Shown here piece after piece: positions 5,285 to 63,836 of a stretch of DNA of 63,836 nucleotides (the stretch's first letter is position 1; each line of letters starts with the position of its first letter). Source of the stretch: a virus; IMG/VR virus record IMGVR_UViG_3300032285_000409, positions 1 to 63,836 of that record; one strand, given 5' to 3'. The position numbers were made by a program, and so were the translations under genes. The notes beneath the pieces are model-generated. The model did not search any database. It worked only from the letters and a program-made list of their open reading frames with translations, and was not told where the DNA came from.

Positions 5285-8176
5285 ATGACCCCGCTTGAGT
5301 TTCTAGCGGTAGTCCTGCCGTCCCCGGGTGATGGGTACTATTGCGCGGCAGGATTTACAAAAACAAAGAAGGAGCACAAATATGAGCAATCGTTGGAGAA
5401 CTTACTCGCCCCTATAGGGGCATGGCACAACAAGAAACAAGACTGCTATTTCGCACTGGCGACCTTTGCCGAGGCAGGTAGTCGTGAGGCAACCAACGCC
5501 ACGCACCTGCGCAGCCTGTTCATTGATATGGACGGCTACGCCAGCAAGAAGGAAGCTGCCGCTGCACTTAACGAGTTCTTGGCCAAGACTGGTCTGGACT
5601 TGTTGGGTACGCCCTACATCGTGGGGTCTGGCGGTGGTCTACACTGCTACTGGCCACTGACGGAGGACGTCGAGGTGTCGGAGTGGAAGCCCGCTGCTGA
5701 AGCGCTCAAGCGCCTGTGTAAACAGGAAGGCATGCGCATCGACATGGCTGTGACGGCTGACGCTGCCCGCGTACTGCGGGTGCCTGATACCACCAACTTC
5801 AAGCCCAAGTACGATACGCCGCGCCCAGTGCGCCTACTGGCGGAGGGTGACACCTTCGACTTCCACGTACTGGCTGACCACATCAAGAGCATGCTCAAGG
5901 CTCCAGTACCCACCTTGCCCGGGGCATCGCTGGCCCTGCCGGGGAAGAGGCCGACCAGTGTCACTCCTTCTGCTACGGCGGTTAAGCTGTTTGAGAACAG
6001 CGTGACCAAGTTCAAAACCATCCTGCGCAAAACCAAAGACGGTCAAGGCTGCGGTCAAATCCGACACTACATCGAGAACGCAACTGATGACGAGATGGAG
6101 CCGCTCTGGCGTGCCGCATTGAGCATTGCGCAGAAGTGCGAAGAAGCGCCCAAGGCTGTGGTCTGGCTGTCTGACCTGCACCCGTACGACCACAACCGGA
6201 TGAACCAGAAGTTGCACAGCATCAAGGGGCCATACTCCTGCGTGTCGTTCGACTCTATCAACCCGGGCATCTGCGAGAACTGCCAGCACTGGGGCAAGAT
6301 CACCAACCCGCTGGCGTTGGGGCGCGAGACAGCCGTCAGTGTCGAAGCTAAAGAGATCGAGGTGCCGGACAAAGTGGACGGCAAACCCCGCAAGATGCTG
6401 CGCCCAGAGCCACCCAAGGGCTACGTGTACGGCAACCAAGGCGGTATCTACATCGAGAAGGAAGACACCGACCAGCAAGGCAACGTGAGCAAGCGCCATG
6501 TCATGCTGCTGCCGTACGATATGTTTCCTGTGGACATCCTCAACGAGAACGGTGACCACTTCGTGCTGATGTATGCGTCTCGTAGCAGTGGGTTTGTTGA
6601 CATCAAGCTGCCGCAGAAATGCGTGGCTAGTCCTGACGAGACGATCAAGTTCCTGATGAACAAGAACATCGTGGCTTCGTTCGGTCGGGGCAACGACAAG
6701 AACCTGTTTGATTACGTTCGCGCTTCTGTTGAGAAACTCAGCATGGAGAAGAACCCCATCGTTATCCCGCAGAGCTACGGCTGGCAGGAAGACGACACCT
6801 ATGTGTTTGCAGGGTCTATCTACGCAAAGGACTCCGAGCCTATCGCCGTGCCGATGCAAGGGCTGGAGAACATCGTGGCTAACACCAAGCCCACCGGGGA
6901 ACTGGACAAGTGGGTCAAGGTCATCAATATGATGATCCGCCGCAAGATGTGGGATCACTTAACAATTATGTTATTTGGTGCTGGCGCTCCGCTGATGCGC
7001 TTCACGGGTCTGTACGGCATGACGGTTCACTGCGCATCAAGCGAGTCGGGTACTGGCAAGTCTTTGGCACTGGATACTGCCGCTTCTGTGTGGGGTCACC
7101 CAGTGCACTACCGTACCGGTTCTGGTACGTCTGCTGTGGCTATGCAACAACGCCTTGGCCTGCTGCGCAGCAACCCGCTCATCACCGATGAGATCACCAC
7201 CAACAACCGCGTGGACTTTGAGTGGTTCCCTGCCTTCCTCTTCAGTATGAGCGAAGGGCGCGGCAAAGAGCGCATGGAGTCGGGTGCCAACAAGGAGCGT
7301 CTGAACCTCTCGATCTGGCAGACCGTCGCCATCATGTCCTCGAACCGCCCTGCGGTGGACTATATGACCGGTGCGCGGCAACACTCATCTGAGGGTGAAC
7401 TGCGCCGTCTGTTGGAATACATCATGGACGAGAAGCTCGACTGGTCACCGGAAGAGATCGAAATCATCAAGTCTTTGCAGCAGAACTATGCGGTAGCTGG
7501 CGACGTGTTGGTGCGCTACTTCGTGAACAACGTGGGCTATTTAAAGACGCTGCTGCCCGAGACCGTGCAGCAGATGTACCGGGAGTTCAAAGCGCCCAAC
7601 GACGAACGCTTCTGGATGGCTGGCTGTGCGTGTGCTGTGGCGGCTGGGATTTTGTTCAACAGCAAGCATACCGGGCTGGTGGACATCCCCATGCAGGAGA
7701 TCATCGAGAGCCTGCGCGGTCACATCAGCACCATGCGCTCCAGTATCAAGGGTGGCAAGCGCACCGCCGAGGACGTGCTCAACGGCTTCATTCAAGAGTA
7801 CCAAGGCCGCTTCGTGGTGGTCAAGTTTGGCGAGAAGGCTGGCCCATTGGCGCACTTCCACGACGGTTCGATTGTTGGCAAAAATACAACACGGGCCGAA
7901 GTTATGGGGCGTGTGGAACACGGCGTCACGGCTGGCTGCGTGGACTTCTTCATCGAGGAGAGATTGTTCAAGGCGTACTGCTCGAACATGAGCTTTAGTT
8001 ACACAAATTTGAAGAAACAGCTTGAGGCGTTGTTTACGGTGAGTTATGTTCCGAAGAAAGACATGATGGCCAAGACTGATGCGCCACCGATGCGGGTCTC
8101 AGCCATGAAGATAAGCCGCAAGATCAACGAGCATGAAGAAGCTATTAACAGTCAACTACCCGTGGTCGAAAACTGA
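5285..8176 (+). CDS. Primase-polymerase (AEP) fused to DUF927-type helicase
   Basis: A 963-residue replication protein. The N-terminal part is an archaeo-eukaryotic-type primase: L-F-I-D81-M-D83-G gives the metal-binding D-x-D, and S-G-G-G-L-H120-C-Y-W gives the conserved histidine. A central part with PYDHNRMNQKLHSIKG and a GICENCQHWG cysteine pair follows. The C-terminal half is a DUF927-like ATPase with Walker A ESGTGKS (about 586-593) and ITDEITTNN downstream. Such fusions prime and unwind DNA at phage and plasmid origins. ATG 5285 follows GAAGGA. With the polymerase, SNF2 helicase and SSB-like protein it completes a self-sufficient replisome. Confidence 0.9.
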   Translation: MTPLEFLAVVLPSPGDGYYCAAGFTKTKKEHKYEQSLENLLAPIGAWHNKKQDCYFALATFAEAGSREATNATHLRSLFIDMDGYASKKEAAAALNEFLAKTGLDLLGTPYIVGSGGGLHCYWPLTEDVEVSEWKPAAEALKRLCKQEGMRIDMAVTADAARVLRVPDTTNFKPKYDTPRPVRLLAEGDTFDFHVLADHIKSMLKAPVPTLPGASLALPGKRPTSVTPSATAVKLFENSVTKFKTILRKTKDGQGCGQIRHYIENATDDEMEPLWRAALSIAQKCEEAPKAVVWLSDLHPYDHNRMNQKLHSIKGPYSCVSFDSINPGICENCQHWGKITNPLALGRETAVSVEAKEIEVPDKVDGKPRKMLRPEPPKGYVYGNQGGIYIEKEDTDQQGNVSKRHVMLLPYDMFPVDILNENGDHFVLMYASRSSGFVDIKLPQKCVASPDETIKFLMNKNIVASFGRGNDKNLFDYVRASVEKLSMEKNPIVIPQSYGWQEDDTYVFAGSIYAKDSEPIAVPMQGLENIVANTKPTGELDKWVKVINMMIRRKMWDHLTIMLFGAGAPLMRFTGLYGMTVHCASSESGTGKSLALDTAASVWGHPVHYRTGSGTSAVAMQQRLGLLRSNPLITDEITTNNRVDFEWFPAFLFSMSEGRGKERMESGANKERLNLSIWQTVAIMSSNRPAVDYMTGARQHSSEGELRRLLEYIMDEKLDWSPEEIEIIKSLQQNYAVAGDVLVRYFVNNVGYLKTLLPETVQQMYREFKAPNDERFWMAGCACAVAAGILFNSKHTGLVDIPMQEIIESLRGHISTMRSSIKGGKRTAEDVLNGFIQEYQGRFVVVKFGEKAGPLAHFHDGSIVGKNTTRAEVMGRVEHGVTAGCVDFFIEERLFKAYCSNMSFSYTNLKKQLEALFTVSYVPKKDMMAKTDAPPMRVSAMKISRKINEHEEAINSQLPVVEN

Positions 8177-26408: not shown

Positions 26409-26442
26409 GGTTCAATTTTGATAGCAAACCATGACGGATACA

Positions 26443-26718
26443 TTACACCTTCACATCCACATGGCTCATTGTTTCATTGTGGGCACCATTTTTTAGCGCA
26501 TTTGCACCCAAATAGGCTTCTTGCGCTTGTCTGACCCTGTCCCATTTAGCCGCTTCCAACCGTTGTGTTTCACGCTGCTGTTCCACGTTCTGAATGGTCT
26601 GACGGTTCATCTTTTGCAGATTTTTCAAGTTTTCGTGATGGCGTACTTGCGCCTGCTCTTGATAACGCTGCGCGTTAATAAAGCCGTAGTTCTGTGGGAC
26701 AGAATTTGTGACTTTCAT
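26443..26718 (-). CDS. Small coiled-coil protein in the lysis block
   Basis: The 91-residue protein starts MKVTNSVPQNYGFINAQRYQ and is almost entirely a Gln/Arg/Glu-rich helix (about 15-75) of coiled-coil type. It has no membrane segment, so it is not a typical inner spanin by itself. The start is set at 26718, where ATGA overlaps the stop of the holin-like gene; a longer frame upstream would run inside that gene. The function is unknown. Confidence 0.7.
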   Translation of the reverse strand: MKVTNSVPQNYGFINAQRYQEQAQVRHHENLKNLQKMNRQTIQNVEQQRETQRLEAAKWDRVRQAQEAYLGANALKNGAHNETMSHVDVKV

Positions 26719-37678: not shown

Positions 37679-38101
37679 TTATGCGAGTCGTATGATTGCT
37701 GATGTGTTGGTGCTTGCGGGGAACTGCACCGTGAACGTGTTAGTGGAAGTTTTATCTGCGCCAAAGTCTAGCACGCAAACGGTTGGATTACCACCCCCAA
37801 CCTTGTAAATCAAAGCCCCACGGGCTGTGATTGCACCTGTCCAAGCCGCGTTGGAAAAGTTAATGTACGCCACTGTGCCCGAAGTTCCCGTAGTAGGAGT
37901 CTGAGATACAGTCAGCGTCGTGCCGCCAGCTACATAGCTACCGCCCGTTGCTTCATTGGCAGAGGTGTATGCCGCCGTAGTTGGCCCTAACGTGGCGTTG
38001 CCGTTGTACAGCGCGATCTTGAACGTGTCCGTCGTGAAGTTGTACGAGCCGTTCATCATGCCTGTCTTGAAGGCGTTGGTTGCGGTTTGCTGAATTGCCA
38101 T
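37679..38101 (-). CDS. Structural protein, paralogue-like neighbour of the preceding gene
   Basis: A 140-residue beta-rich protein, MAIQQTATNAFKTGMMNGSYNFTTDTFKIALYNGNATLGPTTAAYTS..., with VAYINFSNAAWTGAITARGALIY. The FKIALYNG pattern recurs in small virion proteins of phages and could form an immunoglobulin-like or tip domain. The start shares one base with the preceding stop. Its function is inferred only from neighbours and the domain pattern. Confidence 0.72.
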   Translation of the reverse strand: MAIQQTATNAFKTGMMNGSYNFTTDTFKIALYNGNATLGPTTAAYTSANEATGGSYVAGGTTLTVSQTPTTGTSGTVAYINFSNAAWTGAITARGALIYKVGGGNPTVCVLDFGADKTSTNTFTVQFPASTNTSAIIRLA

Positions 38102-51713: not shown

Positions 51714-51729
51714 AATTTTTTAAAAAATT
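51714..51729. repeat. 16-bp A/T palindrome
   Basis: AATTTTTTAAAAAATT is a perfect inverted repeat in the divergent gap. Such tracts bend or melt easily and can bind IHF/H-NS-type proteins. A role in packaging, promoter control or origin melting is possible; none is shown. Confidence 0.6.
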
Positions 51730-51900
51730 TTGGGGTGGGTATAGGTAGTTTTACGTAGTCTTTGCTGGGGTTTTGGGGCTGGTTTGTATAAGGTTTTACA
51801 AAATACTGGGTGCGGGTGGGGAATAGTGTTTCGGGTCGGTACCGGCTTCGCTACATAAAGGGGTTGGTGGGGGTACGGTGGGGTTATCAGATGGGGCTTT

Positions 51901-51928
51901 TTGACCTTCCCCAGACCCCCGTTATGTT
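51901..51928 (+). promoter_or_regulatory. Main early promoter
   Basis: TTGACC (51901-51906) and TATGTT (51923-51928) are 16 bp apart, a good match to the bacterial sigma70 consensus. A start near 51935 gives a leader of about 48 bases before the gene at 51983, which has the ribosome site CTGGAGAAAC. This fits a promoter read by host polymerase just after entry. Confidence 0.7.
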
Positions 51929-51982
51929 TAACTGAAGGTGTTGATGCACTCTCGCACAACATAACCAACTGGAGAAACTTCC

Positions 51983-52764: not shown

Positions 52765-52779
52765 GAGAGAATTCTCTCT
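52764..52779. repeat. 16-bp palindrome, site 2
   Basis: AGAGAGAATTCTCTCT, identical to site 1, overlapping the stop codon of the gene at 52549 and opening the long non-coding block. Confidence 0.85.
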
Positions 52780-53085
52780 GTCTGGGGTGTCCGCAAACTA
52801 AAAAATTTGGACAGCACTGGCGGTATCGTGCAACCCGCATGGATACTAGCGTTTCCAAAAAACTGTCCATACTATCTATCTATTTCTAATCTTTTATATA
52901 TAGATAAGAGTGTTTACCCACGGACACCCCAACAACTTTGTCCGCCTTAGCTTTTCTTTGTCTAACCCCTTTGCTCTTTCGCAAACCGATAGATACTTGG
53001 GACAGTTGTGCCTTTTCTGTCCCGCAAACCGCATGAATACTGGCGTCGCAACTATCCAACAACCCTGTCCAAATTTTTTAGTTTG

Positions 53086-53094
53086 TGGTAACAT
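53086..53094 (+). promoter_or_regulatory. Extended -10 promoter
   Basis: TGGTAACAT is an extended -10 (TGn-TAACAT) 31 bp upstream of the gene at 53125, with no good -35. GGACA motifs surround it and the right arm of the 21-bp inverted repeat ends next to it, so it looks controlled by the protein that binds those motifs. Confidence 0.45.
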
Positions 53095-53108
53095 CGGACA
53101 CCTTCTTA

Positions 53109-53124
53109 ACTAAAGGACTTTAGT
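53109..53124. promoter_or_regulatory. Palindrome over the ribosome site, copy 1
   Basis: ACTAAAGGACTTTAGT is a 7-bp inverted repeat with a 2-base centre lying immediately before ATG 53125 and containing the only Shine-Dalgarno match (AAAGGA). A copy with one change is at 53367-53382. Confidence 0.65.
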
Positions 53125-54093
53125 ATGGACAATTTACTACCAAAGCTCGTTGCCATGAGCCACAACGATGCACACAACTACCTAATGAGCCTTGACCTGC
53201 CCGTGGATTTGCGGGTGTCGCTGGCTGAGAAGGTAAGCGCATACCGCAAGCTCAAAGGCAAGGCGAACAAGCAAGCCAAGCTCACGCAGGTCTACCACGC
53301 AGAGCTATGGCATCGGCTCATTGCCCCGCTCAAATACGAACTTAGTAACGCCAAGGTGGGACGTGAACTAAAAGACTTTAGTGATGCACCCGAAAGACAC
53401 AAGGCGTTCAGCGAATACATCACGCTCATGGAGAAGCTGTTGGCTGGCTTGCAGAAACTTCAGATAGACGAGGGTAGCAAAGCCAGCGTGTCGGTGTTCG
53501 AGCGTGGCAACGCCGACCCCAAGGCGCGTACTGAGTACGCCAAGACACCGGCAGAGATAGCCCAAGCGCGAGAGCTACCCAACAAGGGAGCGCATTGGAC
53601 GAACTGGATAAACGAGCGCACCAAGAACCGCATCCGCGAGTTGTTCGACGGCATCCCATACACCGGCAAGAAAAGACCTGTGCCGTTTGCCTACCGCATA
53701 CCACCTGCGATGTTCAAGCGTGACCTTGCCGCCTTGCAAAAGCGCACTATCAAAGAGTATGACATTGCCAAGCAGGAACTAGAGATGCTACGCAAAGCGA
53801 TGGATGTAGCCACGCCCGAGCAGTATGAGCAAGAGGTCAAGCTCGATGACACCTTGAGGCGTATGCAGTTCGTGCTCAAACACATCACATATCACATGAA
53901 GAACGAACCTCTGCCCCCAACATGGCACGGACTTGCGCACCTGTATGAACCGCCAACAAAGCCGGTAGAAAAGCTGGTCGAGGACTGGGACAACGAAGAC
54001 AACCTGATTGAAACCTTGCGGCTGGCACTTCAGCTTGTTGAGCCTGAACCACCCAAGAAAAAGACAAACCGCCCCAAGCGGTACAGAACTTAG
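53125..54093 (+). CDS. Early helical protein beside the iteron block
   Basis: The 322-residue protein, MDNLLPKLVAMSHNDAHNYLMSLDLPVDL..., is mostly helix, with ARELPNKGAHWTNWINERTKNRIRELFDGIPYTGKKRPVPFAYRIPP in the middle and a Pro/Lys-rich basic end. No enzyme motif is visible. It is transcribed straight out of the iteron block, as replication initiators often are, so a DNA-binding role at that block is a testable guess. Its ribosome site is inside the ACTAAAGGACTTTAGT palindrome, which suggests tight control. Confidence 0.75.
   Translation: MDNLLPKLVAMSHNDAHNYLMSLDLPVDLRVSLAEKVSAYRKLKGKANKQAKLTQVYHAELWHRLIAPLKYELSNAKVGRELKDFSDAPERHKAFSEYITLMEKLLAGLQKLQIDEGSKASVSVFERGNADPKARTEYAKTPAEIAQARELPNKGAHWTNWINERTKNRIRELFDGIPYTGKKRPVPFAYRIPPAMFKRDLAALQKRTIKEYDIAKQELEMLRKAMDVATPEQYEQEVKLDDTLRRMQFVLKHITYHMKNEPLPPTWHGLAHLYEPPTKPVEKLVEDWDNEDNLIETLRLALQLVEPEPPKKKTNRPKRYRT
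53367..53382. promoter_or_regulatory. Palindrome copy 2, inside the gene at 53125
   Basis: ACTAAAAGACTTTAGT differs by one base from 53109-53124 and lies 258 bp downstream, inside codons 81-86. Paired copies across a start region are typical of looping repressors. Confidence 0.6.
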
Positions 54094-62015: not shown

Positions 62016-63836
62016 CCAGACCTTACGACCAAATAATGGCGGTGGATTTTGAAACTCGCTGGAGTAGCAAAGACTACACGCTGTCCAAAATGACAACCGA
62101 GGAGTACATACGTGACAACAGATTCAAAGCCTTCGGCGCTTGTGTCCATGTATACGGAAGCGACGAGCCAATTAGATGGGTTAGCGGACGAGAGCTACCT
62201 GAGTTCTTTTCTGGAATCGACTGGGGACGAACCGCAGTGCTTGCGCACAACGCACAGTTCGATGTATCCATTATGGAGTGGGTCTACGACGTACACCCCT
62301 GCTTCATCTTCGACTCGCTATCAATGGCACGAGCTTTACGGGGCGTGGAAGTTGGCAACAGTCTCGCCAGACTTGCAGCAGATTTCTCTCTACCCGCAAA
62401 GGGCACAGCGGTTTATTCAACTGATGGAGTTCACGAGTTGGAACCGGGAGTTGAACGAGAACTCGCTGAATACTGCAAGCATGATGTGTTTCTGTGCGAA
62501 GAGATATTCAAACGGTTGGCTGTTGCCTATCCATCGTCGGAACTCAGACTTATTGACATGACGCTGAAGATGTACACGCGGGCTTGCCTCGAGCTTGACA
62601 CCGCTATGTTATTCAAAGCACTGACCGAAGAAGGAGAACAACGTGAAGGACTTTTACAGAGGCTCGGCGTGGAGGAGGCTGAACTGGCTTCAAACCCGAA
62701 GTTTGCTGCCCTACTTCAATCGCTCGGGGTGGAACCCCCGAAGAAAACAAGTAAAACTACCGGGAAAGAAACACTCGCGCTGGCTAAAAACGACGCCCTC
62801 TTCCAAGCGCTCCTCAATGGTGAACGTGAAGACATTGCCATTCTTTGTCAAGCGCGTCTTCGGGTTAAATCTACCACCGAGCGTACTCGAGCACAGCGTT
62901 TCCTCGACATCAGCCAGCGTGGCCCACTCCCAGTTCCGCTTTCGTACTATGGTGCTAAGTCAGGGCGCTGGTCAGCGGCTAAAGGAAGTGCCATCAACAT
63001 GCAGAACCTCAAGCGAGGTAGCTTCCTGCGCAAAGCGATTATGGCTCCCGAAGACCATCAACTCGTCGTGGGGGATCTCTCACAGATTGAACCGCGAGTA
63101 CTCGCGTGGCTTTCGGATTACCACGAAATGCTCGACATCTTCCGGTCAGGCGCTGACCCTTACGCGGCGTTCGGTGCGCAGATGTTTAACATACCCGGAC
63201 TTAATAAGGAATCGCATCCCGATCTACGGCAGTCTGCGAAAAGTGCGCTCTTGGGCTGCGGTTATGGCCTCGGTTGGGCTTCGTTCGCGGCGCAACTACT
63301 CGTCGGCTTTCTTGGTGCGCCGCCCGTCAGATACGACAAAGCGTTTGCGAAGAAACTTGGCGTGGATGCAGCGTACGCTGATCGATTCTTAGAGTGGGAC
63401 GACAACGTCAAGAAGATGTTGGAGATTCCCCACACCTGTACGCAGAAAGAGTTGGTCACCCACTGCCTTGCAGCCAAGAAGATCATCGACATCTACCGCA
63501 GCACCGCGCACCCCGTGGTGGCCTTCTGGGACATGCTGGGTGGGCTGATCGAAACTTCTCTTGCGGGCGGCAAGGAGTTCGTGTATAAATGTCTTACCTT
63601 CAAAAAGGGGGAGATAGTGCTGCCTAATGGCATGTCACTGCTGTACCCCGACTTGCGTCAGCAGAAGGACGAGAACGGTAGGAGCCAGTGGGTATACGGG
63701 CCAGACGCTACCAAGCTGTACGCAGGCAAGGTCACGAACAACGTGGTGCAGGGCACTGCGCGGATTGTGATGACGGACGGGATGCTACGCACATCGAAGA
63801 AGTACTTCGTGGCGGGCACGGTGCATGACGAGCAGA
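62012..63836 (+). CDS. DNA polymerase I (family A) with 3'-5' exonuclease, runs off the window end
   Basis: The gene starts at TTG 62012, which shares bases with the upstream stop and follows AAAGGAG by eight bases; the first in-frame ATG (62036) would remove only eight residues before the exonuclease. Exonuclease motifs are D12-F-E14, H-N80-A-Q-F-D84 and Y154-C-K-H-D158. Polymerase motif A is D355-L-S-Q-I-E360, motif B has R406, K410 and Y418-G419, and motif C (V-H-D606-E) reads through the contig joint. Joined with bases 1-266 the protein is 655 residues, so the 5'-nuclease domain of bacterial Pol I is absent, as in T7-type polymerases. Confidence 0.93.
   Translation, partial: MTRPYDQIMAVDFETRWSSKDYTLSKMTTEEYIRDNRFKAFGACVHVYGSDEPIRWVSGRELPEFFSGIDWGRTAVLAHNAQFDVSIMEWVYDVHPCFIFDSLSMARALRGVEVGNSLARLAADFSLPAKGTAVYSTDGVHELEPGVERELAEYCKHDVFLCEEIFKRLAVAYPSSELRLIDMTLKMYTRACLELDTAMLFKALTEEGEQREGLLQRLGVEEAELASNPKFAALLQSLGVEPPKKTSKTTGKETLALAKNDALFQALLNGEREDIAILCQARLRVKSTTERTRAQRFLDISQRGPLPVPLSYYGAKSGRWSAAKGSAINMQNLKRGSFLRKAIMAPEDHQLVVGDLSQIEPRVLAWLSDYHEMLDIFRSGADPYAAFGAQMFNIPGLNKESHPDLRQSAKSALLGCGYGLGWASFAAQLLVGFLGAPPVRYDKAFAKKLGVDAAYADRFLEWDDNVKKMLEIPHTCTQKELVTHCLAAKKIIDIYRSTAHPVVAFWDMLGGLIETSLAGGKEFVYKCLTFKKGEIVLPNGMSLLYPDLRQQKDENGRSQWVYGPDATKLYAGKVTNNVVQGTARIVMTDGMLRTSKKYFVAGTVHDEQ
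63714..63836. repeat. Right copy of 123-bp terminal direct repeat
   Basis: Identical to bases 1-123. It ends inside motif C of the polymerase gene, and joining the two copies restores one uninterrupted reading frame. Confidence 0.93.

Follow-up and report, generated by a model that had tools for sequence, protein, structure and literature searches.

The window, i.e., the whole 63,836-nt stretch of viral DNA analyzed here (IMG/VR record IMGVR_UViG_3300032285_000409), repeats its first 123 bp at its end (1–123 and 63714–63836, within a DNA polymerase gene), which shows that the genome is complete and circular, with a length of 63,713 bp. Late genes run leftward from 51514 and early genes rightward from 51983, and 0.8–1.1 kb inside the early arm lies a non-coding block of 345 bp (52780–53124), directly followed on the + strand by a gene for a 322-aa all-helical protein (53125–54093). 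The block is framed by a perfect 21-bp inverted repeat, CAAACTAAAAAATTTGGACAG (52794–52814 and 53065–53085), embedded in extended 36-nt arms that are 83% complementary (52779–52814, +; 53065–53100, −), the left one ending with a GGACAG box and the right one starting with a CTGTCC box. Nine TGTCC/GGACA boxes, candidate initiator sites, are distributed between 52788 and 53100, five as TGTCC (52788, 52864, 52939, 53018, and 53066) and four as GGACA (52809, 52922, 53000, and 53096); their count is the highest among all 345-bp intervals of the genome, enriched over a background expectation of about 0.7. A stretch with 80% A+T (52858–52907) constitutes a candidate unwinding region. The inverted repeat with its extended arms, the roughly nine cores and the A/T-rich centre on which the original prediction of a replication origin had relied were thus confirmed, and the block combines clustered repeats and an A+T-rich region in a non-coding stretch as iteron-type origins do. 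Long gene-free intervals, whose rarity was also invoked in that prediction, are not limited to the block: according to rough gene calls, further gaps of 300–336 bp exist at 37765 and 26409. Gene-poor gaps of 259–336 bp were noted at 51724–51982, 37765–38100 and 26409–26714. Two short frames cross the block (52910–53113 on the + strand and 52894–53094 on the − strand); the former did not cluster with frames at the equivalent place in related phages. Neither a sigma-70-like promoter nor a terminator was found in the block.

The block also harbors a direct repeat overlooked in the first reading, CCGCATGGATACTAGCGT and CCGCATGAATACTGGCGT (52835–52852 and 53029–53046; 0.08 chance matches expected), whose 23-nt copies are 87% identical. 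Its core, CCGCATGRATACTRGCG, is confined to two sites of the window, 52835 and 53029, even with two mismatches allowed. Copy 1 of the resulting core motif spans 52832–52854 (+; AACCCGCATGGATACTAGCGTTT, the same sequence being found in about 40 related contigs) and copy 2 spans 53026–53047 (+; AAACCGCATGAATACTGGCGTC), 194 bp after copy 1 and in direct orientation, while the A+T-richest 50 bp of the block begin 23 bp after the start of copy 1. The extended form of the motif reads (CTG)AAACCCGCATGRATACTGG(S)TTT. A coding explanation was considered, the two R positions coinciding on the reverse strand with wobble positions of the peptide ASIHAG, and was discarded for lack of a consistent frame.

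Searching viral contigs for the core yielded about 35 non-coding homologous modules, to which a second scan added more; about half of the first scan with CGCATGRATACTRGCG consisted of coding matches in tape-measure genes (LDRMNTGGG), which were excluded. About 40 related contigs share one gene order: portal and terminase genes come first, and the opposite strand then carries two small genes, followed by the block and a member of the 53125 family. The block lies near the divergent terminase/early boundary. In essentially all the relatives examined the 53125 orthologue is the next conserved gene, directly after the block. One block per record was present in all of the 31 relatives tested, usually with two motif copies, the number of copies per genome being one or two. 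Where two occur, they are mostly inverted and 165–202 bp apart, in contrast to the direct copies of the window, and the A+T-richest 50 bp (76–92%) start 18–45 bp past the start of motif 1 in about 25 of 29 representatives. Enrichment of TGTCC/GGACA boxes was clear in the window and in roughly half of the relatives, and not seen in the others. Across the phage clade, the block is kept in place and in plan.

The product of the gene at 53125 had no match in Pfam, PHROGs, PDB sequences or PDB folds; the fold search returned no PDB match below E 0.1 and, in BFVD, only uncharacterised phage proteins. The family is composed of two branches, homologous by profile comparison (E 1.6e-9), one of which has an N-terminal CxxC…CxxC segment. 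On the basis of synteny, this product is a plausible candidate initiator that would bind the block.

The motif is not confined to this clade and recurs, as a sequence family, in other phages, in plasmids and in prophages. The exact 19-mer AAACCCGCATGRATACTGG was found in at least 100 further IMG/VR contigs (1–2 expected), and the 20-mer AACCCGCATGRATACTRGCG in 23 of 85,000 species genomes, where about 2 would be expected. Across 61 genomes of a single family, the 20-mer matched 22 times with two mismatches allowed and its reversed control once; a 23-mer version gave 52 vs. 0 in 399 Burkholderiales genomes. Approximately 440–470 plasmids carry the motif, mainly 4-kb Escherichia coli plasmids; across 5,426 E. 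coli genomes it occurred 138 times on plasmids and hardly at all on chromosomes (one copy, at the search sensitivity used). In pSE11-6, the one plasmid examined, it lies upstream of the Rep_3 gene. Known phages carrying it in unannotated gaps include phiEcoM-GJ1 and its relatives (Chaseviridae), RaK2-like Klebsiella phages, with two tandem copies within inverted repeats, and Pseudomonas phages. In phiEcoM-GJ1 the motif is located amid GCATGTAATATTGTGACAATATT-like repeats that fill a gap of 1.2 kb without genes, just past the RNA polymerase gene (L254:2849–4045); this gap is likely the origin of Chaseviridae. A dnaA-box neighbourhood on an Acidovorax chromosome was dismissed, the flanking gene being priA-like and not dnaA. 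A patch significantly rich in repeats (above 95% of its own contig) surrounded the motif in 34 of the 77 distinct viral contexts tested, against the 5% expected, and in 16 of 68 contexts of a mixed bacterial, plasmid and known-phage set, about half of the contexts elsewhere having no repeats. The repeats differ from locus to locus while the core stays the same, a pattern that fits a lineage-specific initiator array combined with a shared signal.

The AAA and TTT at the opposite ends of the motif are complementary, and several copies outside the clade fold strongly (−12.9 kcal/mol for a copy in IS66; terminator-like in L225 and L233), in line with a core acting in transcripts as an RNA or DNA hairpin, i.e., a leader, a terminator or a protein-binding loop, with its origin-like placement being secondary. 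We consider this improbable, as the two copies of the window fold no better than shuffled sequences, the complementarity of the flanks is barely above that of mismatched flanks at 8–12 nt (z 1.5–2.2, and 5 at 20 nt), and no known structured RNA family reached the Rfam gathering threshold. A conserved hairpin as the identity of the motif, for which support was modest, was set aside.

Using 13 queries, partly drawn from the tested loci, the motif was found within the 250-bp flank of a primase-helicase homologue in 16 of 20 distinct loci, with 1.0 expected, and in 6 of 10 (0.56 expected) when the loci supplying the queries were left out. Ten motif neighbors picked by eye all matched PHROG primase/helicase families, and the neighbor in L286 matched the same families as the protein encoded at 5285–8176 (+) in the window, a phage primase/helicase with DUF927 (PHROG 25314 and 8841). 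In many other carriers the motif sits beside the 3′ end of the primase-helicase gene; in the window, a long distance on the circle separates the DUF927 gene from the block, and its product probably serves as the replicative helicase-primase at the origin.

This distribution bears on two further interpretations of the block. One is a promoter/operator switch of the early operon, where a regulator of the phage or the host would bind the repeats and control the 53125 gene, and the core would be its operator. The position of the block speaks for this, as it immediately precedes the first conserved early gene and lies within the early arm, some 1 kb from the divergent boundary. The block is also compatible with a regulatory region of the downstream operon, which counts against an origin; nonetheless a switch seems unlikely, since the block contains no sigma-70-like promoter, the surrounding repeats vary between lineages around a constant core, and a single operator would not explain the core at primase-helicase 3′ ends and in Rep_3 plasmid replicons. 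The other is a packaging (pac) or recombination site, suggested by a genome that looks circularly permuted and by the likely small-terminase gene, which is 1.3 kb away; it is very improbable, the same core being present in terminase-free plasmids and beside primase-helicase genes.

The arrangement can instead be compared with origins already described. PICIs have a tested origin immediately 3′ of their replication gene, in which two sets of iterons surround an A+T-rich stretch (PMC6092414). The pri-rep-ori organization of PICIs and SaPIs resembles the present one in the repeats flanking an A+T-rich stretch and, for other motif carriers, in the site adjoining a primase-helicase gene (PMC6092414), but the primase-helicase gene of the window is far from the block and PICI papers describe no shared core 20-mer, and the near absence of the motif from E. 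coli chromosomes is a further difference; a site immediately 3′ of the primase/replication gene, the placement of PICI-type origins, was seen in many other motif carriers and not in the window. The oriV of the IncQ plasmid RSF1010, with ssiA and ssiB, similarly has a pair of sites close to an iteron-bearing A+T-rich region and follows the logic of a helicase with an archaeo-eukaryotic-type primase (PMC4434180). However, the core 20-mer is absent from it, the best gapped oriV match is weak (27 vs. 23 elsewhere), and the phage primase/helicase protein has no RepB_primase match in Pfam; with neither similarity to ssiA/ssiB of RSF1010 nor a RepB′-type primase, an IncQ ssi site was rejected. Rep_3 iteron plasmids of the pIGWZ12/MOBQ4 type carry the motif near the replication region (PMC6856555), and in pIGWZ12, the prototype related to pSE11-6, the origin has iterons, an A+T-rich region and DnaA boxes upstream of rep (PMC6856555). 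They differ from the phage in the Rep_3 initiator, which is absent among the phage proteins tested.

Given the established origins of PICI and pIGWZ12 type and a core that is constant amid changing repeats, we favor the interpretation of the 345-bp block as an origin. Its place and plan are conserved in the clade and its core recurs in repeat-rich, primase-helicase-adjacent and gene-free regions of unrelated replicons, and on these sequence comparisons the block is probably the origin of replication of this phage, in agreement with the original prediction, although on grounds that were not available to it. The skew check proposed there was uninformative: the cumulative GC skew of the window had a range below that of shuffled blocks, the GC skew minima of three relatives disagreed, and AT skew likewise gave no information on the origin position. 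Some observations speak against an origin, namely the same-direction copies in the window, which misfit a simple two-strand priming site and are inverted in most relatives, the motif contexts elsewhere that show no repeats (about half), the relatives in which TGTCC/GGACA boxes are not enriched (again about half), and the presence of some motif copies in IS elements, MITE-like repeats, terminators and beside tRNA genes.

As a possible mechanism, an early phage protein, either the 53125 product or the DUF927 primase-helicase, would bind the repeats, the A+T-rich stretch would then open, and the exposed core motif would mark the start of primer synthesis or of primosome loading. The core may thus be a priming or primosome-loading site, a tentative assignment that we infer, as the less probable outcome, from the diversity of the initiators sharing it and from the CTG/CTA within its ACTRG end, these being the triplets at which DnaG primases start. 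In this respect it could resemble the single-strand initiation sites of DnaG and PriA (G sites and PAS of F, R100, and ColE2), short sequences starting priming on exposed strands, although the G site of R100 was discarded as a counterpart, no core match with fewer than three mismatches being present in the R100 region searched, which includes the replication region. Since the core is common to replicons with very different initiators, its reader is more likely to be a replication protein of wide conservation (host DnaG, PriA or similar) than a factor specific to the phage. The core CCGCATGRATACTRG looks like an undescribed shared start signal, and an open-access literature search, missing most subscription papers, returned no relevant match for the motif sequence. 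Its broadest form, in which AAACCCGCATGRATACTRG(S)TTT would be a signal for replication initiation that is shared widely, recognized by a conserved primase or primosome of the host and placed in the differently repeated origins of unrelated phages, satellites, plasmids and some IS/MITE elements, is conceivable, with the chances somewhat against it. If true, a common “start here” word would exist in the mobile DNA of several bacterial phyla, raising the question of which conserved protein reads about 20 letters across DUF927, DUF5906 and Rep_3 initiators. Lineage-specific repeats make phage origins hard to find from sequence; if the core marks them, hundreds of uncultivated phages and prophages, Chaseviridae included, could be searched for origins directly by text.

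Individual copies of the motif were observed in other settings. In one group of loci (L191, L205, L211, L212, and L234) these comprise IS5-like elements, in which the motif lies within a GC-rich hairpin some 90 bp ahead of the transposase gene, and an approximately 100-bp MITE-like repeat, present in at least 10 copies in one genome, with the motif between its CTAGTGTAGTG and CACTACACTAG ends. In L145, L147, L148, and L233 the motif abuts the 3′ end of a tRNA gene or forms a terminator-like hairpin after it, and one motif-bearing viral contig carries a Type-P5 twister ribozyme (L047:3097–3152, +; RF02684, 55 bits).
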